Virus record (IMG/VR): IMGVR_UViG_3300027852_000187
Location: 1 to 21,464 of that record
From: a virus
DNA length: 21,464 nucleotides
Strand: one strand, 5' to 3'
Part shown: one piece after another, positions 5,820 through 21,228 of the stretch
How the letters are laid out: each line of letters starts with the position of its first letter
Position numbering within the stretch: position 1 is the stretch's first letter
Made by a program: the position numbers and the translations under genes
Notes under the pieces: model-generated
Seen by the model: only the letters and a program-made list of their open reading frames with translations
What the model was told of the DNA's origin: nothing
Database searches by the model: none

Positions 5820-6794
5820 ATGGGACAATTATGGGTTACAAATTCTCTGGGTGGGTATATGAGCGCAAAGAACCTGACCAAAAAACTAAGGTATGCGCTT
5901 CAGCCGATGGTTAAATTTCGACAGTTCTGTGATGTGAAGGATGCAACTCACCAGGGGAAGAAAAAGGGAAGCACGTTTCATTGGGATGTGTTTTCAGATG
6001 TAGCGACTCAGGGTACTAACCTTACTGAAACAACGACTATCCCTGAAACAAACTTTACCATTACCCAAGGAACATTAACGATTGACGAACTGGGTAATGC
6101 CGTACCATATACCGGAAAACTTGACGCTCTTTCTGAGTTGCCGGTTACGGAGATAATTAACAAAGTTCTAAAGTATGATGCAGCAAAAGCATTTGATGAT
6201 GCCGCAATGCAGCAGTTTAATGCCTGTTTGTTAAGAATTGTAAGCTCAAATACGACCGCTATAACCTTGACTACGGACGGAACTGCAACATCAACCAATA
6301 GCCTCGCTTTTCAAAAGGAGCATGTAGGCTTAATTGTGAACACCATGAAAGAGCGAAATATCCCGCCTTATTCAGGGGATGAGTATATGGCGCTCGCATG
6401 GCCTACAACTTTCGCAACCCTTGAAGACGATCTTGAGGCTATAAACATTTATGTAACCGAAGGATACCAAAAGGTTGTGAATGGCGAAAAGGGGAAGTAT
6501 AGAAACATGCGGTTTGTAGAACAAACAAACATTGCCAAGGGAGGGGCGGCTGATTCAACGACATGGAATGCCTGGACTGCCGACGCATGGGATAATGCCC
6601 TTTCAGACCCGATTTATTTTTTTGGGAATGATACAGTTGCCGAAGCAATTGCCGTACCTGAAGAAATGAGAGGGAAAATACCCTCTGATTTTGGACGTAG
6701 TATGGGGGTGGCGTGGTATTACCTTGGTGGTTTTGGTATTGTTCATACTTCCGCTGCTAACTCAAGAATCCTCAAATGGGATAGCGCAAGCTAA
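5820..6794 (+). CDS. Major capsid protein, N4-gp56-like
   Basis: This is the shell subunit. It is the single large gene after the scaffold and has the best ribosome site of the head module (AAGAAGGAG). The 324 residues follow the N4-gp56 family pattern: an N-terminal helix (LTKKLRYALQPMVKFRQFCD), a basic linker KGSTFHWDVFSDV, a Thr-rich strand pair before LTIDELGNAVPYTGKLDALS (97-116), and a long helix VTEIINKVLKYDAAKAFDDA (119-138). Late in the chain is GKYRNMRFVEQTNI, equivalent to the family's yrGvrFvet segment. The protein is shorter than P22 gp5 (430), with no inserted telokin-like domain evident. The HK97 fold is inferred from the family. Identity as coat is strong by context; the family name is from recall. 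Confidence 0.87.
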   Translation: MGQLWVTNSLGGYMSAKNLTKKLRYALQPMVKFRQFCDVKDATHQGKKKGSTFHWDVFSDVATQGTNLTETTTIPETNFTITQGTLTIDELGNAVPYTGKLDALSELPVTEIINKVLKYDAAKAFDDAAMQQFNACLLRIVSSNTTAITLTTDGTATSTNSLAFQKEHVGLIVNTMKERNIPPYSGDEYMALAWPTTFATLEDDLEAINIYVTEGYQKVVNGEKGKYRNMRFVEQTNIAKGGAADSTTWNAWTADAWDNALSDPIYFFGNDTVAEAIAVPEEMRGKIPSDFGRSMGVAWYYLGGFGIVHTSAANSRILKWDSAS

Positions 6795-6806: not shown

Positions 6807-7238
6807 ATGAGTAATACATATGATGACAGTAAGTTCGGAGTTATAGAACGTCACTGGTTTGGGCTTCCCAAAACATGGGGCGGTGGAGCAGCTGGGGGGA
6901 TTACGTTTAATGAGACCGAAGCAACGACAATTAAACGGTTCTACCCTAAAGGGCCGATTCAGATACAAAAACTTGGCGTTATAGCCCTTGCGACTCTAGG
7001 CAAAGGAGAACAAGCATTTAATTTAAAGATAGACGGCTCAACTACAATGAAAAGTATTGTAGCCTCAACGACTTCAGCTCCAGGCACGATAGCCTCGGTT
7101 GTGGTTGATGATGGACTTTCAGCCGGAAGTTATCTGTCTTTAATAGCCTCTACTAATGCATGTTCAACTGGAACCTGTGCTGTGTTTATTGATTTTAGAC
7201 GCAAATATGATACCAGCAGATGGTCCCCGACAAGCTAA
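6807..7238 (+). CDS. Possible capsid decoration or head fibre protein, beta-rich
   Basis: A near-consensus ribosome site (AAGGAGGTGAC) precedes the ATG, so it is probably made in large amount like the coat protein 12 bases upstream. The 143 residues are Gly/Thr/Ser-rich with alternating strands: FYPKGPIQIQKLGVIAL, AFNLKIDGST, and AGSYLSLIAST. The C-terminal strand holds two nearby cysteines (NACSTGTCAVFIDFRRKY). This fits a beta-sandwich virion protein. High expression and position suggest a decoration protein, but I do not recognise a specific family. It is the last gene before the hairpin at 7250-7271 and before the glycosyltransferase cassette, which makes it a candidate glycosylation target (inference). 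Confidence 0.6.
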   Translation: MSNTYDDSKFGVIERHWFGLPKTWGGGAAGGITFNETEATTIKRFYPKGPIQIQKLGVIALATLGKGEQAFNLKIDGSTTMKSIVASTTSAPGTIASVVVDDGLSAGSYLSLIASTNACSTGTCAVFIDFRRKYDTSRWSPTS

Positions 7239-7287: not shown

Positions 7288-8331
7288 GTGAAAATAGTAA
7301 TGCTCACAAGACATTGTTGTATAAGAGTAATCAAAGAAGCATTGCCCCTGATCTCTTTGGGTCATGAAGTACATTTAATAACAAATAAAATAACTCAATT
7401 TTCAGATTTATTTACAACGGTTACAGCCTATCAAGACGTAGACCAGTTATATAATGCCGTTAAGCTTCACGGGGATGCTGATATTTTTCATGCGCATAAT
7501 GAGCCGTCATGGTTTGTTACAGTAGTTAAAGAAACACTTTCTAATGTACCGATTATCTTAGATATACATGATTCTCATGTTTTGAGAAGGACAGACGAAG
7601 AGTTGAGGGAAATAAACGATCCTGAATATTTTAGAATCAGCGTAGATGAAAGGAATAACTTTCAGTTGGCCGATGGGTTGGTTTATGTCTGCAACCCAAT
7701 GGTTGATAAAGTAGGCGGTGAGTTTAAACTTGATCAACCATATATAGTTTTGCCTTCGTATGTCCCTGAAAGATTTTATAGGATTGATTTTTTACGATGG
7801 ATCGGTGGATTGGTATACGAGGGAAGAATAGACTTGCCGGATGAATTGCCCAAAACATGGGATTTTTTCCAGTATTCCAACTATATAGACCTTGCCAAAA
7901 AAGCAAGGGAACTAGGAATTGATTTTCATGTTTATACTCCAAGACAAAATGAAAAGGTGTTAAAAGCATACAAAGATATAGCATATTTACAAACTCCACA
8001 AAAGCTTGACAGGCTTATTAAGTGCTTAGGCTCGCATGATTGGGGTCTTGTTGGAAATATATATCATTTTGAAGAGTGGGAAAATGCTTTACCAAACAAA
8101 TTGTTTGAATATTTAGCGGGCTGTGTTCCTGTTGTGGCGATAAATGCTAGAGAATGCAGCAACCTTATTGATGAATACAAAATAGGCATCTCAGTTGAAT
8201 CACTAGAGGAGCTTACCGAAAGGTGGAAAGAGCATAGAGAGGCGAGAAAGAATGTAATAAAATTCAGGAAAGAGTTTACAATGGAACGGCATATATCAAG
8301 TCTGGTTGAATTTTATAAAGGATTTATATGA
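7288..8331 (+). CDS. Glycosyltransferase, GT-B fold (family 4-like)
   Basis: This enzyme should transfer a sugar from a nucleotide-activated donor to an unknown acceptor. The 347 residues show a GT-B N-terminal domain: MKIVMLTRHCCIRV, then SLGHEVHLITNK (23-34), ADIFHAHNEPSW (64-75) and VPIILDIHDSH (87-97). The C-terminal donor-binding domain has LPNKLFEYLAGCVPVVA (268-284). The first acidic residue before this helix is spaced x8 rather than x7 from Glu274, so the classic E-x7-E is slightly off. No membrane segment is seen, so it is probably cytosolic. It starts with GTG (7288) without a clear ribosome site, unlike nearly every neighbour, and the 3' end overlaps the next gene as ATGA. Donor and acceptor cannot be read from sequence. 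Confidence 0.85.
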   Translation: MKIVMLTRHCCIRVIKEALPLISLGHEVHLITNKITQFSDLFTTVTAYQDVDQLYNAVKLHGDADIFHAHNEPSWFVTVVKETLSNVPIILDIHDSHVLRRTDEELREINDPEYFRISVDERNNFQLADGLVYVCNPMVDKVGGEFKLDQPYIVLPSYVPERFYRIDFLRWIGGLVYEGRIDLPDELPKTWDFFQYSNYIDLAKKARELGIDFHVYTPRQNEKVLKAYKDIAYLQTPQKLDRLIKCLGSHDWGLVGNIYHFEEWENALPNKLFEYLAGCVPVVAINARECSNLIDEYKIGISVESLEELTERWKEHREARKNVIKFRKEFTMERHISSLVEFYKGFI

Positions 8332-9263
8332 CTAAAGTGTTGTTATATTATCCGCCTTGGGGAAACAGGTGGATACCATACATAGAAAACGAGCTAAGTC
8401 AATATTATGATCTATTGGTTTTTACTCCTGATAGCAATGCATTAAACTTTGATCATCTTGCTCAAGCCTCTGAAAAAGCAGATATATTGTTTTCGATGTG
8501 GGGAGATAATATTCTTGGGTTTTGGACAAAGCACTTTCCTGATAAAAATATAATATCATATATAAGGAGATACGAGGTTTGGCAAGACTACACCTATAAA
8601 AACATAGACTTCAAAAAAGTAAATGCTCTTATTTTTGTGAGTGAGTATTATAAAGAAGAGTTTAAAAGACTTTTAAGGGCGGAGCCGCCTACGTCATACC
8701 TTATTCCAAACGGGATTGATCTTAACGAATGGAAAGTACGGCCTGAAAAGGCAGAAACCAACAAAATAGGAATGGCGTGTACTGTTAAAAATGTAAAGAA
8801 CTTGCCCCTTGCAATGCAAATACTGATGGAGTTACCGGATAAATATACAATAGAACTGATAGGGACACCATTTGCAAGCCAAATAGCGGGACAGATATTT
8901 TCATATATAGACAACCTTGATACGAAAGGTAGGTTTATATATCAAGGCCATAAAGACTCTGGTGAGATTCAATCCTGGATGGAAGATAAAGACTTTATCT
9001 TGTCTACTTCGATTAACGAAGGGAACCCGAATAATATAATAGAGGGGATGGCGATGGGGATTAAACCTGTCATTCACAATTGGCCTGGAGCACTGGATCA
9101 GTTCCCAAAAGACCTGGTTTTTGATAAAATCAGTGAGGCCATAGCTATTTTTGAGGGGAAATATCAGCCTGATAAATATAGAAAGCATGTTGAAAATAAT
9201 TATTCACTAGATAATTTTAAGAAGATACACGCCGTAATAGAGGACACACAATGCAAAAAATAG
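8328..9263 (+). CDS. Glycosyltransferase family 4-like, second in cassette
   Basis: This is a retaining-type GT-B enzyme by motif. The 311 residues contain an N-terminal domain with ADILFSMWGDN (51-61) and ALIFVSEYYKEEF (100-112). The interdomain landmark YLIPNGIDLNEW is at 124-135. The canonical E-x7-E donor motif is complete, with Glu231 and Glu239 in INEGNPNNIIEGMAMG (229-244). The domain linker is followed by IGMACTVKNVKNLPLAM, equivalent to the usual 'G....KN...' segment. It is compact for the family, with a short N-terminal domain and no membrane anchor. The start overlaps the previous stop (ATGA at 8328-8331) and an AAAGGA lies upstream, so the two glycosyltransferases are translationally coupled and may act in sequence on the same acceptor. 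Confidence 0.88.
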   Translation: MTKVLLYYPPWGNRWIPYIENELSQYYDLLVFTPDSNALNFDHLAQASEKADILFSMWGDNILGFWTKHFPDKNIISYIRRYEVWQDYTYKNIDFKKVNALIFVSEYYKEEFKRLLRAEPPTSYLIPNGIDLNEWKVRPEKAETNKIGMACTVKNVKNLPLAMQILMELPDKYTIELIGTPFASQIAGQIFSYIDNLDTKGRFIYQGHKDSGEIQSWMEDKDFILSTSINEGNPNNIIEGMAMGIKPVIHNWPGALDQFPKDLVFDKISEAIAIFEGKYQPDKYRKHVENNYSLDNFKKIHAVIEDTQCKK

Positions 9264-9565
9264 ACACAAGTAGACCATATGGAGTTGTGCATGGGCTCTC
9301 TGATTATAAATTTGAACAAGATAATAAGAGGTTTGACCAAAATGGACATGAAATCGTCAAACATGAAACCAAGCCTGATAAAATGCAGGACTTTTTTGAG
9401 AGACTTGACATAGATGACTCAAGAAATGAGTGTTATGTCACAAAAAAAACAATCATGGGATTGTTGGAAAAATACGGTATACCATATAAGCCGGTTGAGA
9501 AAAAAGGCGAGATGGTACGGAAGCTAAAACAATATTATACGGACAATCATAATGTGGACGCTTGA
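9251..9565 (+). CDS. Small protein with HeH/LEM-like (SAP-type) domain
   Basis: The 104-residue protein has a polar N-terminal half with no known motif. Residues about 64-95 (VTKKTIMGLLEKYGIPYK, then EKKGEMVRKLKQY) form the two-helix pattern of HeH/LEM or SAP-like domains: short helix, turn, GI-Y loop, and basic second helix. Such domains bind nucleic acid in some proteins and are frequent in phage structural or accessory proteins with no proven role. A GAGG site precedes the ATG. It overlaps the previous gene by 13 bases and the following fusion by 14, so it is locked inside the glycosyltransferase cassette. Domain assignment is by pattern and moderately secure. Confidence 0.7.
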   Translation: MQKIDTSRPYGVVHGLSDYKFEQDNKRFDQNGHEIVKHETKPDKMQDFFERLDIDDSRNECYVTKKTIMGLLEKYGIPYKPVEKKGEMVRKLKQYYTDNHNVDA

Positions 9566-11060
9566 AACGTCAAGAGGGAATGAAGCCAATAAAATAAAAT
9601 ATGAAATTGTGAACTATACCGGTGGGAGAGTCCTTGATCTTGGTTCAGGCCCATTTAAGCCTTACTCACATTTTATCAGCATGGATAATATGACGGAGTA
9701 TGACAATAACGGGTGGCACCCTGATGTTTATGGAGATGCGGAAGACTTATCCTTATTCTCCAGCAACTCATTCGATGCAATATTTTCAAGCCACCTACTG
9801 GAACATATAGTGGACTATTCCTCCGCATTAAAGGAATGGTGGCGAACAATAAAAGTTAATGGTTATTTAGTTTTGTATTTACCACACAAAGAATACTATC
9901 CAAACATCGGAGAAAAAGGGTCTAACCCAGACCATAAACATGATTATATCCCAGACGATATTGTCGATGCAATGGTTGATTTGAGTGGGTGGAACCTGCT
10001 TGTCAATGAAAGCAGGAATAACGATAATGAATATTCTTTTTTGCAAGTGTACCAAAAGCGTAACGACCATAAGCATAGCTATCCATATAAGATGAAAAGA
10101 CCCGTGAAGACATGCGCTGTTGTTCGATATGGCGGCTTTGGCGATTTAATTCAGGCATCCAGTATTTTACCAGGGTTAAAACGAGAAGGATATCACATTA
10201 CTTTTTATACTACTCCATCTGGTAGAAATATTTTAAAAAATGACCCACATATAGATAGCTTTTTTGTTCAAGGGAAAGACCAGGTTCCAAACAATGAGTT
10301 GCCGTTGTTTTGGAATAAGCAAGCTGAAAAATATGATAAATTTATCAATTTGTCGGAATCCGTAGAGGGAACATTTCTTGCGATTCCCGGAAGAAGTCAA
10401 CACACTTGGCCCTACAAATTAAGAAATGAAATGTTAAACAAGAATTACCTTGAATTTGCACACCTTATGGCGGATGTCCCATTTAAGGATGAACAGCGCT
10501 TCTATCCATCTAAGGATGAACTTAAATGCGCACAAAAACAAAAAGACGAGCTTGGAAGATGTGTTTTTTGGATACTTTCAGGATCGTCTGTTCATAAAAC
10601 ATGGCCTTATTTAGACCAGGCAATAGCAAGGATATTAATCACATATCCTGAAATCAAGATTATCCTTACAGGGGATGAGGTTTGTCAAATATTAGAAATG
10701 GGATGGGAGAAAGAGGAAAGAGTTATTAAAACATCCGGAAAATGGGGGATCAGACGATCCTTAACATTTGCTAAATTTGCAGACATTATAATAGGGCCTG
10801 AAACGGGCATCCTAAGTGCAGTGAGCAATTTGAGTATGCCTAAAATAATAATGCTGTCTCATTCATCCGTAGAAAACCTGACAAAACATTGGGTTAATAC
10901 CGTATCATTAATGCCTATGGAATGTGATTGTTATCCATGTCATATGATGCACTATGGGTTTGACCACTGCCGCAGAGATTCAGAAACAGGTGTAGCGAAA
11001 TGTCAGGCAAACATATCTATCGACCAATTTATGGAAGGATTTAATAGGCTAACGAGGTAA
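9552..11060 (+). CDS. Fusion: SAM-dependent methyltransferase + GT9 glycosyltransferase
   Basis: One unbroken frame of 502 residues carries two enzymes. Residues 1-170 are a class I methyltransferase. Motif I is GGRVLDLGSGPF (24-35), an acidic strand end follows (SMDNM, 43-47), and motif IV is SFDAIFSSHLLEHI (73-86). After these comes LPHKEYYPNIG with NPDHKHDYIP (110-134), the loop of type-11 methyltransferases that act on sugars or small molecules. Residues 186-500 are a GT9, ADP-heptose-transferase-like enzyme. It has AVVRYGGFGDLIQASSILPG (189-208), a donor strand IKIILTGDE (368-376), IIGPETGILSAVSNL (413-427) and a cysteine-rich end (Cys458, 460, 463, 473, 483) like many GT9 proteins. An internal ATG at 10092 could yield GT9 alone. 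It probably makes or transfers a methylated sugar; the acceptor is unknown. Confidence 0.87.
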   Translation: MWTLETSRGNEANKIKYEIVNYTGGRVLDLGSGPFKPYSHFISMDNMTEYDNNGWHPDVYGDAEDLSLFSSNSFDAIFSSHLLEHIVDYSSALKEWWRTIKVNGYLVLYLPHKEYYPNIGEKGSNPDHKHDYIPDDIVDAMVDLSGWNLLVNESRNNDNEYSFLQVYQKRNDHKHSYPYKMKRPVKTCAVVRYGGFGDLIQASSILPGLKREGYHITFYTTPSGRNILKNDPHIDSFFVQGKDQVPNNELPLFWNKQAEKYDKFINLSESVEGTFLAIPGRSQHTWPYKLRNEMLNKNYLEFAHLMADVPFKDEQRFYPSKDELKCAQKQKDELGRCVFWILSGSSVHKTWPYLDQAIARILITYPEIKIILTGDEVCQILEMGWEKEERVIKTSGKWGIRRSLTFAKFADIIIGPETGILSAVSNLSMPKIIMLSHSSVENLTKHWVNTVSLMPMECDCYPCHMMHYGFDHCRRDSETGVAKCQANISIDQFMEGFNRLTR

Positions 11061-11063
11061 AAA

Positions 11064-11804
11064 ATGGCTGGTTCAGGAACAGGGACAGTTGTAACAACAC
11101 CGACATCCGATACGGATATTACTTACACTGGAACTAACATAATAAAAGCTGCATTGCGATGTTTAGGAGTAGTCGCACCCGGAGAAACACCAGAGCCAAG
11201 CGAGATAACAGATGCACTAGAAGCGTTAAATATGATTCTAAAGCAATGGCAAGGGCCTCCAAGTTATTTTTTGCAAGGGCTAAAGGTATGGGCCAACGAA
11301 AGGGCAAGCCTGACGCTTACAGCAGCAAACAGTTTTACATTTCACAGCGCAGGCGGAGCTGACCTAGCGATAGACCCACCGGAAGAAATATTGTTTGCAT
11401 ATCGTAGGAATACAGACAATATTGATTCTACCCTTTCAAAAATGCTGCTATCTGAATATGAAGCAATAAGCAATAAATCAGCAGTTGGAACACCTACAAA
11501 ATATTATTATGAAAAAGAACTTACCCAGGGAGTGTTTTTTCTTAATTATGTCCCGGCTGACATTACTGATACTATAGAAATAACATACAGACGCCCGTTA
11601 GAAAAATTTTCCGCAGGCTCGGATTCCTTTGATTTGCCGCAACATTGGTTTAGGGCTGTAAAATGGAATTTAGCCCTTGAGGTGGGCGGGGAATACGGTA
11701 AAGACATAAGCCAAGTATTGCCGTTAGCGAAAGAATCATTAACAATAGCGCAATCTTTTTATCCTGAAACATCGGTAGATTATTTTCAACCAGGATTAGA
11801 TTAA
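11064..11804 (+). CDS. P22 gp4-like head completion / tail accessory protein
   Basis: In P22, gp4 binds the underside of the portal after packaging, keeps DNA inside, and provides the platform for gp10. The family's opening pattern is clear here after a short Thr/Gly-rich leader: NIIKAALRCLGVVAPGETPEPSEITDALEALNMILKQW, read in pieces over residues about 25-62. The mid-region (LAIDPPEEILFAYRR) and late segments (IEITYRRPLEKF, SFDLPQHWFRAVKWNLALEV) fit this family. The C-terminal helix ends with a short tail. The length of 246 exceeds P22 gp4 (166), as in many environmental relatives. It starts 3 bases after the cassette, with ACGAGG upstream, and overlaps the next start as TAATG. Confidence 0.85.
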   Translation: MAGSGTGTVVTTPTSDTDITYTGTNIIKAALRCLGVVAPGETPEPSEITDALEALNMILKQWQGPPSYFLQGLKVWANERASLTLTAANSFTFHSAGGADLAIDPPEEILFAYRRNTDNIDSTLSKMLLSEYEAISNKSAVGTPTKYYYEKELTQGVFFLNYVPADITDTIEITYRRPLEKFSAGSDSFDLPQHWFRAVKWNLALEVGGEYGKDISQVLPLAKESLTIAQSFYPETSVDYFQPGLD

Positions 11805-13171
11805 TGAAATTCGACTTTATATCAGCAACGCCTGGGCCGGAAGGCCGATATCCTCAAAATCTGTTCTTTCATCCTGAGCAGATAGATGGGAAGCCTGCAT
11901 TGATCGGTACACCCGGATTAATACAGTTTTCCGATCCGTCAAACGAAAGCGAGGTCAGGGGCGGGATATGCGTGGGTAGTTATAGTTATGTGGTATGTGG
12001 AAATACTTTTTACAAGGTAGATTCAGCGGGCACGGCTACAAGCAAGGGAACGATAAACAGCAACTCAGGCAAAGCGTGGATGGAATATAACGGCTCTCAG
12101 ATTATGATAGTGGGTGGAACCGGCGGGTGGGTATATGATGTATCTGCCGATACCCTGACGCAAATTACAGCAGATGGGTTCCCCGGGGCAAGCTCTCTTG
12201 CATATCAAGACACATATGGAATCGTTGTTCGTCCAAACACAAATGAAATATATATATCAGATGAACTGGACTTCACCACATGGGATGCGCTGGACTATGC
12301 GCCTATAAATAGTATAGATAAGCTTGTCGCTGTGTATTCGGCGCATGATGAGCTTTGGTGTTTTGGAAAAGACAGGATAGAGGTTCGATATAACTCAGGC
12401 GCAACCTTTCCTTATGATCCTATTCCTGGGGGTCAAATAGAAACCGGACTTGGGGCGGCAGCTTCACTTGCGATGCTGGATAATCGACTATTCTGGCTGG
12501 ACAACCAAAATTCTATCAGAATGGCTGAAGGACATACTGGAACTGTAATATCAACTCCTGAAATAAATAATCTGATTTCTCAACATCCGAATGATGATGC
12601 CATTGGATACGGATTTATCATAAGCGGTAATCCCTTTTATGTTATCTGCTTCCCATCATGGAATAAAACCCTGATGTATAATGTTTCTACAAACAAGTGG
12701 AACTATTGGAGCAGCTCACCATATGACAGCCGACACAGATCGAATTGCTATATTGATTTTAACGGCAGGCATATTGTCGGAGATTACGAAAACGGGTTAC
12801 TTTATGAAGTTGACTTCGATACATATACTGACAATGGAACCAATATAAGAAGAGTAAAAACATCTCCTTCTATCAGGGGAGAGCACTATGAAAATATATT
12901 TTACCATGAATTGGGCGTATTGTTTAAGCATGGTACAGGATTAACGGATAATGTAGACCCCCAAGCTATGCTCAGATGGTCTGATGATATGCTTAGAACG
13001 TGGTCTAACGAACACTGGAGGGGTATAGGTAAGATAGGTGAATATAAAGACCGTGCTATATGGCACAGAATGGGAAGAAGCAGAGACAGGTGTTACGAGC
13101 TTGTAATAACCGATCCTGTTGAGGTTGTTATCAGGGATGCCTGGTTAAAAGCTGAAAAAGGGTTTGCATAA
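11804..13171 (+). CDS. P22 gp10-like DNA stabilisation / tail hub protein
   Basis: The 455 residues match P22 gp10 in size (472) and position, directly after gp4. In P22, gp10 forms the hexameric hub that plugs the portal channel and anchors tailspikes and the needle. The sequence is beta-rich with blade-like repeats: NPEQIDGKPALIGTPGLIQF-type opening at about 20-45, then AWMEYNGSQIMIVGG, TYGIVVRPNTNEIYISD, WDALDYAPINS and DELWCFGKDRIEVRYN. IRMAEGHTGTVISTPEIN is a strong family-like segment, followed by TLMYNVSTNKWNYWSS. The C-terminal part, RWSDDMLRTWSNEHWRGIGKIGEYKDR, read in halves, is typical of gp10 relatives. The gene is coupled at both ends by TAATG overlaps. Confidence 0.9.
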   Translation: MKFDFISATPGPEGRYPQNLFFHPEQIDGKPALIGTPGLIQFSDPSNESEVRGGICVGSYSYVVCGNTFYKVDSAGTATSKGTINSNSGKAWMEYNGSQIMIVGGTGGWVYDVSADTLTQITADGFPGASSLAYQDTYGIVVRPNTNEIYISDELDFTTWDALDYAPINSIDKLVAVYSAHDELWCFGKDRIEVRYNSGATFPYDPIPGGQIETGLGAAASLAMLDNRLFWLDNQNSIRMAEGHTGTVISTPEINNLISQHPNDDAIGYGFIISGNPFYVICFPSWNKTLMYNVSTNKWNYWSSSPYDSRHRSNCYIDFNGRHIVGDYENGLLYEVDFDTYTDNGTNIRRVKTSPSIRGEHYENIFYHELGVLFKHGTGLTDNVDPQAMLRWSDDMLRTWSNEHWRGIGKIGEYKDRAIWHRMGRSRDRCYELVITDPVEVVIRDAWLKAEKGFA

Positions 13172-14868: not shown

Positions 14869-15828
14869 ATGCCTGTCGCTACAAGTATAAAATATCCTGA
14901 CTTCGGAAACGCATTGCTTAAAGCTGAACAGATTAAGGCTTTCAGGCGTGAACCTGGAAGATATGCAGCTGAACGAGGCTATAAGGAAAGAGACTTAACT
15001 CAAAGGCGAAATGCCTTGCTTGCTGAACGTGAAAGAGCAACAACCAAAGAACAAGGTGAGTTGTCCGAAAAGTTTCACGAGGAAGCCGAACGTGCTATTG
15101 CTACTATAGACTTTAATTCTCCCAATGCACAGGGAGAGTATAACTCGATGATACAATATTTTGAAAGGAAGTATGGAAAGGAAGTAACCGGAGAACCTCT
15201 TCCCATATCTCAAGCATTTCAATTACAGCCGATGTTAAGAGAGAAGATAATGGGGACGGAGCAACGCACTCAGGCGGGGAAACTTAGGCTGGAAGAGAAA
15301 AAACAAACAGGCAGGGTTTCTCTTCAAACACAGGAAGACGTTGCGGCAATGGAGCGAGAAAAGGTAAAGAGTAGGGCAAAAACCGTGAATGCAAAGGGCA
15401 AAACCATTGATATGTATAAAGAAATAGATGGTAAATGGTATGAAAGTAAAGTACCCATTAATGAAAAGCTAGAAAAAACACAAGCAGGATGGGGTATTGT
15501 ACGTCCAACCTTTAAGCCTGAAACCAAAAAGACAACATCTGAGACAGAGAAAAGACAAAGAGCGAAAGACGTAAAAAAGGCTGAAGACGTAATACTCAAT
15601 CCTGACAACAAGGAAAACCCACGATTAAAAACAGAAATAGATTTTTTCAATAAATATTCAGATAAACCATATATATATGTGTGGAAGGAAGAAGTTAAAG
15701 GCAGATGGAATGATATAGAAGCTCATGTGGAGAAAATAGACATATCAACCCCTGAAAAAATTCGAGATGCAGATATCCCACGAGAAAAGAAAATTGAACT
15801 ATTAAAATCAAGGTTTGGATTTGAATAA
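14869..15828 (+). CDS. Probable ejection (internal virion) protein, helical
   Basis: The 319 residues are highly charged and mostly helical. The N-terminal third is Arg/Glu-rich (ERGYKERDLTQRRNALLAER) with coiled-coil tendency, and a second helical block spans about 125-180. A short beta-like segment (MYKEIDGKWYESKVPIN) follows, then a Lys-rich linker. No signal peptide, membrane span or enzyme motif is seen. The start lies two bases after the gp7-like stop with GGGAGG upstream, and the stop is fused to the next start (TAATG). It occupies the place of P22 gp20, the second ejection protein. That role is positional inference; the sequence itself is unfamiliar. Confidence 0.55.
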   Translation: MPVATSIKYPDFGNALLKAEQIKAFRREPGRYAAERGYKERDLTQRRNALLAERERATTKEQGELSEKFHEEAERAIATIDFNSPNAQGEYNSMIQYFERKYGKEVTGEPLPISQAFQLQPMLREKIMGTEQRTQAGKLRLEEKKQTGRVSLQTQEDVAAMEREKVKSRAKTVNAKGKTIDMYKEIDGKWYESKVPINEKLEKTQAGWGIVRPTFKPETKKTTSETEKRQRAKDVKKAEDVILNPDNKENPRLKTEIDFFNKYSDKPYIYVWKEEVKGRWNDIEAHVEKIDISTPEKIRDADIPREKKIELLKSRFGFE

Positions 15829-18800
15829 TGAACGCTGAAGCCTTTCTTAATGTAAAAGCCCCTAAACAGGGATCAGCCGAAGACTTTCTTGCCCCCAAGC
15901 AAGGGATCACAAAAAAAGAACCCCCACCAGTACCTTTGGGCTTACTCGAACAACAAGCAATGGGAAAAGAAATAATCCCATCTATGGATATGGCAGCAAA
16001 AGAAGGCCCCGGAGGTAAGGCTGTTGGCTGGCTTGGGGAGCAATTAATAGGTGGAATAGATGCAACCCTGGCTTTAGGCACAGGTATGGCACTATGGCCG
16101 TTTTCTAAAATGTATGGATTAATGGCTCTGCCCTTTGGTGCAGAGGTGGCAAAAATGGCTGAAAATGAAATAGCAAGCCTGGGATATGAACCACGCACCA
16201 AAGAAGGCCAAGAAGCAGTGGAAGCAGTCGGGAAAGGATTTGAACTATTTCTGAAGCCTGCACACATGGCAGGTGAAGCAGCGTCAAAAATAAGTCCACG
16301 GCTAGGATATTTAGTTGAACTAGGTGGAGAGCTTGCAGAGTTCGCAATTACTCATGGTGGGGTTAAAGGAATAAAGGGGAGGCCGAAAAAACCTAAAGTA
16401 ACCGAAAAGGGAGAGGCTGAGATAGCAAGAAAGTTTGAAATAAGTGAGAAATTAAAAGAAAAAAAAGGACGTTTACCATTAAAAACATTATCACAAGCAG
16501 AAAAAAGGATTGGGGATAAGTCTGGCACTGGAATGCCCCTAGTAAAACCTCGTGAAATGGAGCCTGGATATACGTACAAACCTAAGCCATTAGACATTGA
16601 GCCCTTGAAGGGCGCACCAGGAGTTGAAAAAACCACAGTTCAACACAAAGCTGACGTAATTAAAGAACGCTGGGGCGCAAGGGTTGAAAGGGCAAAAGAG
16701 GCAGTAAGACAACAAACTGATGAAACCAAGCCTATGCCTTTAGTAAAACCTAAAAAACTTAAGCCTGGATATAAGTACAAGCCTGCGCCGTTGGATATAA
16801 AACTCTTAGAAGGTGCTCCAGGAGTTGAAAAGACTACTGTTCGGCATAAAAGGGACGTTCTTATGGAATCTGATGCTATGAGAAGAGAGAAGCTGATAGA
16901 TCAGATGATGATTGAACGTCCCGAAACAAGGCCAATACCCTTAACAAAACCTCAAGAACTTAAAACTGGATATACGTATAAGCCTAAAAGATTAGTAAAA
17001 AAACCATCAGGAGAAGTAAGTCTTGAAACAAGTGGTTTCCAACATGCTTATGAATCTTTAGTTAAAAACCTCAAAAAAGAAAAAAAGAGAGGGCGAATAC
17101 TTACAAGGGAAGATATAAAGATATTCGATGAAGGTAGGGTTGTTAAACAAAGAAGGTGGAAAAGTAATGGAATAGCAATGAAAGCTCCTCCAATATATGA
17201 AGCGGAGATGAAAATCATAAAGACTCTTCCTGAATTAAGAAAAAAACCTTTGGGGGGCTGGATAGAAAACGCTATACGAACCTTTGAAGAGCTGGGAGTG
17301 GACGCAAAAGAATTGTTTTATAGGCCAATGAAACAGGCAGAGCATAGGGTGGCACTAGAAAGAAAGGCAACACATTTAAAAATAAATAAATTGAAGGCAG
17401 GGCTTGCGTTAAAATCAAGAAAAAGAATAGGTGCATATGCCATATCACAACAAAAACGTGGCGTGGATATTTTGTCAGAGATGGGGATAACAACCCCAGA
17501 ACTTACCCCAAAAGAGACGAAGGTTTATAAAGTATTGAGAAATGAATTTGAGGAATATTACAAGAGACTCAATAATGCTAGAATGCTATCAGGGAAAGAC
17601 CCGTTTCCAAAAACCAAGAACTATTTTACTTTTTTTAGAAACATAGGCTTACTTGAGGAAATGGGTTTTAATCCTGTTTTTACAAAGGGGGCTGCGCTTC
17701 AAAAACAATTTATACACTTAAAAACAACTCCTTTTCGATTTGCTAAACATAGAGCAAAAACGGGAGTCCTCCCTGTCGAAATAGATGCTTTTAGAATATT
17801 CGAGAAATATGCAGCGCCGGCAATAAAGCATATTCATTTATCTCCAACCATTGCTAAAGGACGAGAGTTCTTGTTAACCTTTCAAGATAAAAAAGGTAAA
17901 TGGATTTTAAAGGATGAAAAGCCCTTGACAGCAAAATTTTTGACAGACTGGTTAGATTTTCAGGCAGGGCAAAAAACCCCCTCCGTTCTTCCCTTGCCAA
18001 TAGAAAAAATGTTGATGAAGATAAATAAAAACTTAACATTTTCTATACTTTCGGGAATGATAAGATCAGCACTTATTCAACCCTCTGCAATAAGAAATAC
18101 AATAGTTGAAATAGGCCCAAAGTATACATGGGAAGGTATCCAGTCTCTTTTTAAAACGAAATCCAGGGACTTTGCTATGGAGAAATCACAAGTATTGCTT
18201 TCCAGGGATTATGATATTGCTGTGCATGATGCTATGGAGGCTGTCAGATTAGGGCGAATTGGGAATATAAAAGAAGTAACAGCCAAACTAGGATTAAAAC
18301 CCTTACAAATATTAGACATAGAAACCGCAAAAGCTACCTGGACAGGAGCTTACCAAATGGCAACCAAAGAGATGAAATACACTGAAAGAAAAGCGGTAAA
18401 TTATGCAGATGATGTTGTAACAAAAACACAGGCTTCCGCTTCCCCAAGTGATATTTCTCCGATACAAAGGTCTGCACTTGGGAAATCAATATCTCTTTTT
18501 CAGACTTTCGTTATTAACGAGTGGGGGTTTTTAACAAAGGATGTTCTAGGTATTAAAAATGCTAAAATGAACAACAAAACGATTTTTAAAAAAGCAATCG
18601 GATTTATTGTTGGAACTACTCTTGTAAATATGTTTTATGAAGATATTTTAAAGATAAACTCACCTTATCCAAGTCCTATAAAAGCATACCAGGAAAAAGA
18701 AGGTATTTCTTCCGTGATAAGTGCAGCAAAAGAACTGGCTGAACAAATACCGATAGTGGGGGGCGGGCTAAGATATGGGAAGGGTATCACCGGGGCTGGT

Positions 18801-18998
18801 TCTGAAATAGTGAGAGATGTAATTGGTGGGAAAAAACCTATCGAAGCTATAATAAAACTTATGGGAATCCCCGGAACTACACAGGTAATAAAAACCATGA
18901 AGGCCAGGAAAAGAGGGGAATCTATTCCAGGTCAACTACTAGGGCAATATACCAAAAAGAAAAAAACCGGAAGACTTTCAGGCGGCCTACAACCATGA
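15828..18998 (+). CDS. Giant ejection / internal virion protein with 67-residue repeats
   Basis: At 1056 residues this is the largest protein in the window and sits where P22 has gp16 (609), the third ejection protein. Residues 1-40 contain short repeats around KQG, AEAFL and AEDFL. Residues about 60-150 have a small hydrophobic region and GYEPRTKEGQEAVEAVGKGF, a segment I recall from large phage internal proteins. Residues 236 to about 392 hold exact-length 67-residue repeats rich in Pro and Lys. From about 440 the chain is helical and basic. Near the C-terminus, SPIQRSALGKSISLFQTFVI is followed by a hydrophobic helix (KKAIGFIVGTTLVNMFYEDI) that could insert into membrane. I found no lysozyme or transglycosylase catalytic motif. 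AAGG lies upstream of the TAATG-coupled start. Confidence 0.68.
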   Translation: MNAEAFLNVKAPKQGSAEDFLAPKQGITKKEPPPVPLGLLEQQAMGKEIIPSMDMAAKEGPGGKAVGWLGEQLIGGIDATLALGTGMALWPFSKMYGLMALPFGAEVAKMAENEIASLGYEPRTKEGQEAVEAVGKGFELFLKPAHMAGEAASKISPRLGYLVELGGELAEFAITHGGVKGIKGRPKKPKVTEKGEAEIARKFEISEKLKEKKGRLPLKTLSQAEKRIGDKSGTGMPLVKPREMEPGYTYKPKPLDIEPLKGAPGVEKTTVQHKADVIKERWGARVERAKEAVRQQTDETKPMPLVKPKKLKPGYKYKPAPLDIKLLEGAPGVEKTTVRHKRDVLMESDAMRREKLIDQMMIERPETRPIPLTKPQELKTGYTYKPKRLVKKPSGEVSLETSGFQHAYESLVKNLKKEKKRGRILTREDIKIFDEGRVVKQRRWKSNGIAMKAPPIYEAEMKIIKTLPELRKKPLGGWIENAIRTFEELGVDAKELFYRPMKQAEHRVALERKATHLKINKLKAGLALKSRKRIGAYAISQQKRGVDILSEMGITTPELTPKETKVYKVLRNEFEEYYKRLNNARMLSGKDPFPKTKNYFTFFRNIGLLEEMGFNPVFTKGAALQKQFIHLKTTPFRFAKHRAKTGVLPVEIDAFRIFEKYAAPAIKHIHLSPTIAKGREFLLTFQDKKGKWILKDEKPLTAKFLTDWLDFQAGQKTPSVLPLPIEKMLMKINKNLTFSILSGMIRSALIQPSAIRNTIVEIGPKYTWEGIQSLFKTKSRDFAMEKSQVLLSRDYDIAVHDAMEAVRLGRIGNIKEVTAKLGLKPLQILDIETAKATWTGAYQMATKEMKYTERKAVNYADDVVTKTQASASPSDISPIQRSALGKSISLFQTFVINEWGFLTKDVLGIKNAKMNNKTIFKKAIGFIVGTTLVNMFYEDILKINSPYPSPIKAYQEKEGISSVISAAKELAEQIPIVGGGLRYGKGITGAGSEIVRDVIGGKKPIEAIIKLMGIPGTTQVIKTMKARKRGESIPGQLLGQYTKKKKTGRLSGGLQP
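16533..17000 (+). repeat. Tandem 201-base (67-residue) coding repeat, two full units and a partial third
   Basis: Units start at 16533, 16734 and 16935, exactly 201 bases apart. Each begins (M/I)PL(V/T)KP, then x3-4, then GYxYKPxxL. Units 1 and 2 also share the segment GAPGVEKTTV(Q/R)HK and DV. The third unit is recognisable for about 20 residues and then diverges. Conservation is highest in the first 43 residues of each unit and lost in the second half, although the length is kept. Confidence 0.9.
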
Positions 18999-19020: not shown

Positions 19021-21228
19021 ATGGCAACTCTATGTCCATACCCATTATTCAAAGCATTCGATTCCAGCGATGTCTCGCTAACCGGTGGAAAGGTTAATTT
19101 TTACGAACCCGGTTTGGGCGTAAGAAAAGATACCTACACAACCCCAGCTGGGACTACAGAAAACACAAACCCTGTAATACTGGATTCACGGGGTGAGGCG
19201 GACATATACCTCAACGGTTCGTATAAAGTAGTCCTCACAGATTCAGATGATAATGTAATATGGACGAAAGACCCTGTTTCAGGTATCAGCACCGAATATC
19301 AACAGAATGCTTATTATGTGGATGATACCGTTGCAGATCAGGGAGCGGCAACCACGGAAGGGAACAGGTCTATAAAAGACTTTGTTGACGATATCGGTAG
19401 CACTTCTATCGGGTCGATTATATGTAGGCGTGGAACATCGGGGAATAGCACAACCTATACCCTAACAACTTCAGAGACAATTCCAGACAATATAATGTTC
19501 ATTATGGAGCCCGGTGCAATCATCTCAGACGGCGGAGGGGCTGCAAACCTCGTCATAGGAAAGATGGACCCGGTTACATATAAAGTGTTCGACTGGACAG
19601 GAAGCGGTGCTCCTACCTTCAGCGATGGGGCAATTCCCTATGTTTATCCTGAAATGTTTGGTGGGGCCTCAGACGGCGATTATACGGCAGGCACGGGGAC
19701 TGACAACACAACACCCTTTGCTCAGGCAATAGCCTCCGGGGCCAAAAAAATAATGCTGCTTGTCGGTGAATATAAAGGCAATATTATTCTTGATAGCGAC
19801 CTTATCCTTGAAGGTATCGGCCAAGGAGATACCATTCTATTCCCTGCTACTGATGATGCAGTGATAAAAACCTTGCTTACTGATAATACCGTGAGGGTTG
19901 TCTTTAAAAACTTTCGCATAGACGGAACCTTTGCTAAAGCTACTTTTACTACCTCTGATGGCATCCGACTTGGAGCGACAACCGCAGATAAGTTTGTAGA
20001 TACCATTCGCTTTGAAAACGTTCGCATAGACGACATGGGCCGATATGGTCTATATTGTTTTGGTGACACAAACAATTTCGTACAAGACCTATATGCAGAT
20101 CAATTAAAGATATATGACTGCACAAAAGCGGGGCTATATGTTTCCGGTCATGTGCTTGAGTTTTTATTCAATGCGTCATGGTTTGCCAGAAATGGTGACG
20201 CTTCTAATCCTAGTGTTGAGTTTGTCCTTGATACAAAAAGAGCGAATAGGATAAACTTTACTAGCTGTAGATTCAATCATGCGGACTATTCCACAACTGG
20301 CACGGCAGCCAAGTTCCAGGCCGTAGATCAGCTATCCTTTAAAAACTGTGACTTTGAAGAAGCTGATATTATGCTTCACGTTCTTCACAGTTTGAGCAGA
20401 GGGCTAGGCGTAAAAGAGTGTAACTTTGCTTCAACCGGAAATGTTACAAAGGCTATTTACCTTCAGGATATTAATGGTGCTGAAATTGGCACCAGTGTTT
20501 TTGCTTCTACCGGAACAATGACAACCGGCATCTTGGGTGATTCTGCAATAAACAGATTAAGGAATATTAAAATTGATGCTACAAATGTTTATTCAAACGT
20601 AACTACCCCAGTAGACATTACCAACAATACCACCATAGACACGGGCAAAATATACGCATATCAGGACTACATGCGGGTTAATACTGAGGCTTCAGCAGCC
20701 ACAGACAATCTAGACTATATTTATGATTCAAGTGGGAGTGATGTAGTTACCGGCTTACAGCATGGGCAGGAAGTAACAATAAGGCCGTTTAATACAGCAC
20801 GGTCAGTAGTCATTACCAATGACGGAAATATAGTAACAGCTACCGGGTATAGCGTGTCCCTCGATACGGATGAGTCTACATTTACTTGCAAGTGGGACAA
20901 TACACTCTCTAAGTGGGTGCAGGTAAGCGGCTTTACCGGATATGAAGAATCAATCACGGCAGATGGTGGAACCTTAGCCGCATACGGTACGTCAGTATTA
21001 GATTCAACATCAAACAAGGTTGACTCAACCCTTCCGAGTGCTACGGTAATCGGCACAATGAAGGTTATCGTAATGAGTGAATCCTCAAACTCGTCAACCG
21101 TCTCTATCACTAACCATGAGACTAGCGATCCAGAAGTGGCTACCTTCAACGCTGTTGATGAGACGTGGATAGGGATGTGGACTGGAACTGAGTGGGTGAC
21201 TGTTTACGCAACTTGTACTTTCTTGTAA
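19021..21228 (+). CDS. Tailspike / receptor-binding protein, P22-type head-binding domain and beta-helix
   Basis: The tailspike binds and usually cleaves surface polysaccharide. Residues 1 to about 85 are a P22-style head-binding domain: PLFKAFDSSDVSLTGGKVNF (8-27), LGVRKDTYTTPAGT, NTNPVILDSRGEADIYLNGS read in parts, and YKVVLTDSDDNVIWTKDPV. A linker leads to PEMFGGASDGDYTAGTGTDN (210-229), the cap that precedes right-handed parallel beta-helices in phage spikes. Repeating beta-helix rungs follow to about 540 (ILDSDLILEGIGQGDTILFP, VRVVFKNFRIDG, TIRFENVRIDD, INFTSCRFNH, LSFKNCDF, LGVKECNF). Two beta modules end the chain. The total of 735 is close to P22 gp9 (666). AAGGAG precedes the ATG. 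Catalytic residues cannot be assigned by eye. Confidence 0.9.
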   Translation: MATLCPYPLFKAFDSSDVSLTGGKVNFYEPGLGVRKDTYTTPAGTTENTNPVILDSRGEADIYLNGSYKVVLTDSDDNVIWTKDPVSGISTEYQQNAYYVDDTVADQGAATTEGNRSIKDFVDDIGSTSIGSIICRRGTSGNSTTYTLTTSETIPDNIMFIMEPGAIISDGGGAANLVIGKMDPVTYKVFDWTGSGAPTFSDGAIPYVYPEMFGGASDGDYTAGTGTDNTTPFAQAIASGAKKIMLLVGEYKGNIILDSDLILEGIGQGDTILFPATDDAVIKTLLTDNTVRVVFKNFRIDGTFAKATFTTSDGIRLGATTADKFVDTIRFENVRIDDMGRYGLYCFGDTNNFVQDLYADQLKIYDCTKAGLYVSGHVLEFLFNASWFARNGDASNPSVEFVLDTKRANRINFTSCRFNHADYSTTGTAAKFQAVDQLSFKNCDFEEADIMLHVLHSLSRGLGVKECNFASTGNVTKAIYLQDINGAEIGTSVFASTGTMTTGILGDSAINRLRNIKIDATNVYSNVTTPVDITNNTTIDTGKIYAYQDYMRVNTEASAATDNLDYIYDSSGSDVVTGLQHGQEVTIRPFNTARSVVITNDGNIVTATGYSVSLDTDESTFTCKWDNTLSKWVQVSGFTGYEESITADGGTLAAYGTSVLDSTSNKVDSTLPSATVIGTMKVIVMSESSNSSTVSITNHETSDPEVATFNAVDETWIGMWTGTEWVTVYATCTFL

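Follow-up and report, generated by a model that had tools for sequence, protein, structure and literature searches.

A probable virion-glycan locus in the head gene block of a large, almost wholly uncultured phage lineage

The window analysed here is a 21,464-base IMG/VR record (IMGVR_UViG_3300027852_000187) of an uncultured bacterial virus, a fragment without end repeats. Its plus strand carries a podovirus-like virion block that reads terminase, portal, scaffold, coat, beta-rich protein, a four-gene cassette, neck genes of the Ad3/Hc3 type, ejection-type proteins and spike. The cassette codes for two GT4-type glycosyltransferases (GT1 and GT2), a small HeH-like protein, and a methyltransferase fused to a GT9-type glycosyltransferase (MT-GT9). 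We found that MT-GT9 belongs to the conserved core genes of an extensive phage lineage with hardly any cultured members, and we consider it likely that this part of the head gene block constitutes a virion-glycan locus.

In all 67 loci in which both the coat and the neck end of the interval are in view, this interval contains MT-GT9 or its GT9 half. We also assembled a set picked regardless of glycosyltransferases, namely the best 80 of the 293 IMG/VR relatives of the coat protein. In this coat-chosen set, 21 loci extend as far as the neck genes, and MT-GT9 or GT9 stands in the coat-neck interval of every one of them. GT9 was detected in 59 of the 80; 20 of the other 21 end less than 2 kb past the coat gene, and the remaining one (locus L050) ends 5.2 kb past it, short of the neck genes. 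A search of IMG/VR with GT9 confirmed at least 587 relatives, and coat and/or neck genes adjoin it in 77 of the 78 loci newly fetched with this query, the other being a short contig. Among 84,980 bacterial and archaeal species genomes there were 21 matching loci, 20 of them adjoining phage coat and/or portal genes; prophages carrying GT9 reside in the isolates Paraburkholderia sp. C35, P. rhynchosiae WSM 3937, Aromatoleum anaerobium LuFRes1 and Pseudothauera rhizosphaerae. No counterpart of the GT9 half was found in 50,697 cultured phages or 72,556 plasmids, and GT1 had no match in the cultured phages; matches of cultured phages to MT-GT9 were confined to the methyltransferase half and came mostly from cyanophages. 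The original prediction had the cassette inserted into a P22-like block. As history this is wrong, since the arrangement is the rule in the lineage.

The distances between GT9 sequences track those of the portal (r 0.77) and of the coat (r 0.58), with a permutation p of 0.0005. Moreover, the head-closure protein has diverged more than GT9 (mean 1.41 versus 0.68). Together, these observations mark GT9 as a vertically inherited head-block gene. Some relatives encode the methyltransferase half as a gene of its own, and in a marine group of relatives the match covers the GT9 half only, which points to GT9 as the core of the locus. The cultured phages with the nearest coats (45-48% identical) are Xuquatrovirus PTXU04, the E. 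coli phages Bas95 and Pondi, and the Vibrio phages D65-like and 1.232.O. They share the portal-scaffold-coat-Ad3-Hc3 order, and in the coat-neck interval of the four cultured relatives that we read no glycosyltransferase was annotated or found, the interval holding small open reading frames (ORFs) only. Phages without glycosyltransferases (after thinning, two cultured phages and two of their own IMG/VR relatives) form one clade with a support of 100/100, in a tree that was rooted at the midpoint and whose rows were partly chosen by GT9.

The rest of the interval is variable. Across 142 intervals between coat and GT9 the cargo ranges from 0.25 to 9 kb, and in relatives it includes GT-A transferases, extra methyltransferases of the TylF and FkbM types, a GT4-sulfotransferase fusion, and a Gfo/Idh/MocA dehydrogenase together with a hexapeptide acyltransferase. 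In locus L250 the dehydrogenase matches the solved WbpB (5.6e-83) and the WlbB-like acyltransferase matches the lipopolysaccharide (LPS) acetyltransferase 3mqg (9.6e-54), enzymes that serve together in the synthesis of a 2,3-diacetamido-glucuronate donor. The window is without sugar-nucleotide genes of the WbpB/WlbB type. The interval in relatives also holds HNH-like and fibre-like ORFs. Such a spread of sizes and contents would be expected of a gap that merely tolerates insertions, in which the glycan genes would be morons with no role in the virion and GT9 would have been fixed by chance. We regard a cargo hot spot of this kind as improbable: GT9 is present without exception in the lineage, has more than 50 invariant columns among 23 relatives (identity range, 39-54%) and has diverged less than the head-closure protein, and the pairing of GT1 with a coat-adjacent protein, described below, holds across lineages.

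This pairing is the best clue to the acceptor that the sequences appear to offer. In most relatives an ORF of about 120-200 residues begins soon after the coat gene. Two types of this ORF can be distinguished, betaO (MATKNMAYDHPAY...) and betaV, the type found in the window. IMG/VR was searched separately with GT1, which has 47 relatives there, and with betaV. GT1 was present in 31 of 31 non-redundant betaV loci and in 0 of 67 betaO loci (Fisher 3e-26, kinship ignored); when only the loci chosen by coat or by GT9 were counted, it accompanied betaV in 4 of 4 and betaO in none of 67. Six coat-bearing GT1 loci lack betaV as judged by profile; in four of these the slot is filled by an ORF that, by eye, has a betaV-like FFxD motif at its C terminus. 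The coat-betaV-GT1 order was also found in phages with coats 34-43% identical to that of the window. In the 31 loci, the distances of betaV and GT1 are correlated (r 0.65, and 0.61 with the coat held fixed), whereas those of betaV and coat barely are (r 0.35, partial 0.17), although the two are direct neighbours as well and in the window stand closer to each other (12 bases) than betaV and GT1 do (49 bases). GT1, too, follows the coat only loosely. Coat and GT9, the genes that flank the betaV-GT1 pair, give an r of 0.87 (17 loci). The pairing and these correlations suggest that betaV and GT1 form a unit that moves and diverges jointly within a constant frame of coat and GT9. Simple adjacency predicts a link between coat and betaV too, yet that link is weak; an enzyme and its substrate would fit the betaV-GT1 unit.

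The beta protein was modelled with AlphaFold2 (AF2) as a beta sandwich, with a predicted local distance difference test (pLDDT) score of 73. Its best structural matches are weak, with Z scores of 7.8-9, and include the phage cement proteins of KHP40 (7dou, 8.1) and KHP30 (7dn2, 8.0) and a chain of the Pam1 capsid (7eel_H, 7.8), which stand among non-phage proteins of equal Z; the betaV sequence profile found no solved relative. From the model, it is at most a fair guess that the protein serves as a cement or decoration protein on the shell. Ser and Thr make up 22% of the window betaV. Across 31 betaV sequences S97 is invariant, and most of them have Ser or Thr at T63, T116 and T123; these four positions are candidate glycosylation sites. 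Richness in Ser and Thr as such was rejected as a sign of glycosylation, as the counterparts in cultured phages without glycosyltransferases reach 18-24% too.

The original prediction had read the cassette as two GT-B transferases, a HeH/LEM-like protein and a methyltransferase-GT9 fusion. Pfam profiles and models bear out the two GT-B enzymes, the methyltransferase and GT9; the HeH/LEM fold was not confirmed, the protein having no Pfam or PHROG match. ORFs related to the HeH-like protein occur in 51 of the 142 coat-GT9 intervals, and their alignment has the N-terminal RPYG..G....EQ motif alone in common. Both GT1 and GT2 score above the cut-off with GT4-type Pfam profiles. GT2 has the E-x7-E motif at residues 231-239, and GT1 has the second Glu alone, in PNKLFEY. 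The methyltransferase half scores 40.2 bits with Methyltransf_11 (cut-off, 21.2), and its model superimposes on 3dli with a Z of 16.7, as expected of a class I S-adenosylmethionine (SAM)-dependent fold. In the AF2 model of MT-GT9 (mean pLDDT, 87), residues 184-502 resemble the GT9 structure 3tov (Z 23.4), the LPS heptosyltransferases WaaF (1psw, Z 22.4) and WaaC (Z 20.5), and TibC (Z 20.4). A search with the profile of the GT9 family retrieved the solved structure 3tov at 9e-4, and 7 of 16 relatives matched Glyco_transf_9 (PF01075; best, 1.4e-5). The window GT9 half itself has no Pfam match, and phmmer with this half alone returned nothing except chance survivin/BIR matches.

The GT9 domain is marked by the motifs R-Y-G-x-F-G-D198, K349, G-P-E417-T-G and C460xxC463H..C473..C484. 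D198, the active-site Asp of the GD motif, and K349, the phosphate-binding Lys (assigned by motif only), are invariant in 23 sequences, and the GD of D198 aligns with that of 3tov. The phage enzymes thus share with WaaF and WaaC the fold and the active-site Asp and Lys. They differ at the donor motif D-T-G-x-x-H, which in the phage family reads E417-T-G-x-x-N/S, whereas host GT9s have DTG or DSGxxH; they also make up a phage-only subfamily that is inherited with the head genes. Because of this substitution the sugar need not be heptose, and the donor of the phage GT9 may be a different one.

GT9-like enzymes acting on protein are known in TibC and AAH, the autotransporter heptosyltransferases, and TibC has Cys residues at 339, 342, 358 and 370 (PMC4358343). 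The phage GT9 resembles them in its GT-B fold and its catalytic Asp, and it has a possible counterpart of the four-Cys motif. All four Cys of the tail (C460xxC463-x9-C473-x10-C484) are invariant in the 23 sequences. However, the N-terminal beta barrel of TibC and AAH is not present, the N-terminal half of the phage protein being a class I methyltransferase or absent, and four-Cys tails also occur in 2 of 6 host GT9s of Paraburkholderia and Aromatoleum. We therefore neither count the phage protein among the autotransporter heptosyltransferases nor take a TibC-like iron finger as a sign that the acceptor is a protein.

The nearest folds, WaaF and WaaC, raise the question of whether the enzymes act on the host instead. 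During late infection or lysogeny, GT9 and the GT4 enzymes could act in the cytoplasm to add or change sugars of the LPS core; progeny would then not stick to debris or lysed cells, and superinfection would be blocked. The WbpB/WlbB-type enzymes of relatives are LPS enzymes as well, the hosts found are mostly Gram-negative, and some relatives carry integrases. Late modification of the host surface fits less well with a head-block position that is fixed in the 67 loci and with the inheritance of GT9 alongside the head genes. Nor does the cassette look like a transcription unit of its own. In the window GT1 and GT2 overlap by 4 nucleotides (nt), GT2 and the HeH-like gene by 13 nt, and the HeH-like gene and MT-GT9 by 14 nt; 3 nt separate MT-GT9 from the gp4-like gene, 12 nt the coat gene from betaV and 49 nt betaV from GT1. 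The four ORFs are where the original prediction had put them, and they overlap or abut as far as gp4. The plus strand of the window showed no terminator between coat and gp4, and an own promoter for the cassette was rejected, as promoter matches were at the chance level of shuffled sequence. The cassette therefore seems to be expressed together with the late genes, and its predicted placement in a late operon is supported; the coat gene lies upstream and the gp4/Ad3- and gp10/Hc3-type genes lie downstream. Moreover, the four cassette proteins have no strongly hydrophobic segment (the highest 19-residue mean is 1.23), and gtr-type conversion needs a membrane segment. The gtrABC genes of P22, which bring about serotype conversion, lie beside the att site. 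They too are phage glycosyltransferase genes; here, in contrast, there is no flippase or membrane protein and the genes are placed inside the head operon. We rejected an O-antigen conversion set of the gtr type, in view of the missing membrane protein and of the missing promoter and terminator signals. Finally, an action on the LPS core does not predict that GT1 should be tied to the type of the coat-adjacent protein. On balance, modification of the host surface seems to us unlikely, if the strongest of the alternatives.

Glycosylation of DNA bases is the best known use of phage glycosyltransferases, and the cassette enzymes might in principle glycosylate hydroxylated bases of the phage DNA in the manner of the T4 glucosyltransferases. 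A PF00303 protein (thymidylate synthase/hydroxymethylase) is encoded in 4 of 19 long records. The other 15, some of which may be fragments, have no PF00303 gene, yet all have GT9, and a DNA substrate does not account for the link between GT1 and the coat-adjacent protein; we consider this explanation very improbable indeed. The PF00303 genes lie on the other strand in L204-L207 (the records of L009, L149, L038 and L152), and may mean that bases are modified in this subgroup.

The best reading is thus the one that the original prediction had listed as modification of a capsid or decoration protein, with GT1 tied to one type of a cement-like beta protein. According to this reading, GT1 would transfer a sugar onto the betaV type of the beta protein late in infection. 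GT2, and the other transferases where present, would extend the sugar begun by GT1, and the methyltransferase domain would cap a sugar by methylation. GT9, the fixed core enzyme, probably glycosylates a head protein (the coat, the beta protein or another) with a host nucleotide sugar, for example ADP-heptose. The presence of the beta protein in the virion, its role as acceptor, the sugar and the order of the steps are what we infer from the genes and models; the glycan may serve to protect the particle, to escape binding by the host or the environment, or in adhesion. Several points weigh against a glycosylated virion. The acceptor, the sugar and the modified virion are all predictions from genes and models. 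GT9, GT4, WbpB and WlbB enzymes are also LPS enzymes, and the four-Cys tail, occurring as it does in host GT9s, says nothing about the acceptor. The beta protein is placed in the virion by the position of its gene and by a moderately confident model, the matches of which (Z about 8) are in the range of a common fold. Joint transfer of neighbouring genes could yield part of the betaV-GT1 correlation, and co-evolution of GT9 specifically with the coat was looked for in the lineage and not found (partial r 0.1).

More tentatively, and at rather less than even chances, the locus may encode a two-layer capsid glycocode. An obligate GT9 would prime a head protein, and exchangeable pairs of cement protein and GT1, together with variable extension genes (in relatives, with a rare amino sugar made on site), would give each phage a specific surface glycan, the modules being swapped like those of bacterial O-antigen loci.

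The features of the interval and its anchors are collected in Table 1.

Table 1. Coordinates in the window of the cassette genes, their domains and the neighbouring head genes
Feature	Position (nt)	Strand	Evidence or remark
Major coat protein, upstream anchor	5820..6794	+	phrog_1357 1.5e-17; 293 relatives in IMG/VR
Beta protein (betaV type), likely cement/decoration, proposed GT1 acceptor	6807..7238	+	start 12 nt after coat
GT1, GT4-type (GT-B) glycosyltransferase, 347 aa	7288..8331	+	Pfam PF13439 (Glyco_transf_4) 30.4 bits, cut-off 28.5
GT2, second GT4-type glycosyltransferase, 311 aa	8328..9263	+	PF00534 (Glycos_transf_1) 28.0, cut-off 26.4; phrog_2170 1e-15
Small HeH-like protein, 104 aa	9251..9565	+	N-terminal RPYG..G....EQ motif, conserved
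MT-GT9 protein, 502 aa	9552..11060	+	ORF; methyltransferase half and GT9 half
Class I SAM methyltransferase domain of MT-GT9, residues 1-about 176	9552..10080	+	Methyltransf_11 5.3e-10; 3dli Z 16.7
GT9 domain of MT-GT9, residues about 184-502	10083..11060	+	model versus GT9 structures; >50 columns invariant among 23 relatives
gp4-like head-completion/adaptor protein (Ad3), downstream anchor	11064..11804	+	SU10_adaptor 8.2e-6, just under cut-off; phrog_637 5.9e-7
gp10-like head-closure protein (Hc3)	11804..13171	+	phrog_578 1.9e-91

Several further observations were made on the coat gene and the rest of the virion block. The phages among L216-L254 with coats 34-43% identical to that of the window form a second, more divergent uncultured set with the same coat-betaV-GT1-GT2-GT9 order, and some have sugar-nucleotide genes; the cultured relatives of one coat of this set, that of L219, are distant (36-37%). 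In several relatives the match to the coat gene is interrupted, and group I introns (Rfam RF00028, 55-103 bits) lie inside or at the edge of the interrupted matches, at 1656-1889 in L097, 2589-2895 and 3503-3795 in L121, 7702-7983 in L139 and 7530-7814 in L171. Interrupted coat matches were also seen in L111, L170, L215 and L235; of these, L111 and L215 were scanned and gave no Rfam match. The coat gene of the window is uninterrupted. In L031 (2939-5161) the match to the terminase large subunit is in two pieces about 640 bases apart, perhaps because of an intron or an insertion. Positions 15828-18998 of the window encode a protein of 1056 residues, of which residues 627-902 match phrog_9880 (unknown function); it is perhaps an ejected or internal virion protein. 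The first 90-120 residues of the window spike (19021-21228) recur in relatives at varying places with 34-51% identity (L009, 10292-10552; L054, 9786-10058; L016, 625-972), as one would expect if this domain binds to the particle and the receptor parts are exchangeable.

Virion glycosylation has so far been known from few cultured phages. In the mycobacteriophages Che8 and Rita, phage glycosyltransferases are thought or shown to glycosylate capsid proteins, as Freeman et al. (2023) is cited in PMC11256854 and PMC12691614, and the transferases of Maravista are encoded close to the 3' end of its genome (PMC11256854). The locus described here likewise relies on phage-encoded glycosyltransferases. 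It differs in its placement between coat and neck, its GT9 core, the paired coat-adjacent protein and the sugar-nucleotide genes of relatives, and here the modification is a prediction. We found no account of a head-block glycan locus in the open literature, a search that left most subscription journals outside. If our reading is correct, virion glycosylation would be a core trait of a large uncultured lineage, with its genes in the head operon and a probable protein of the shell surface as their partner, and both acceptor and enzyme could be identified from sequence. The prophages of culturable soil bacteria would then offer test systems, and one would be led to ask which purpose a coat of sugars on the capsid serves for phages of soil and water.

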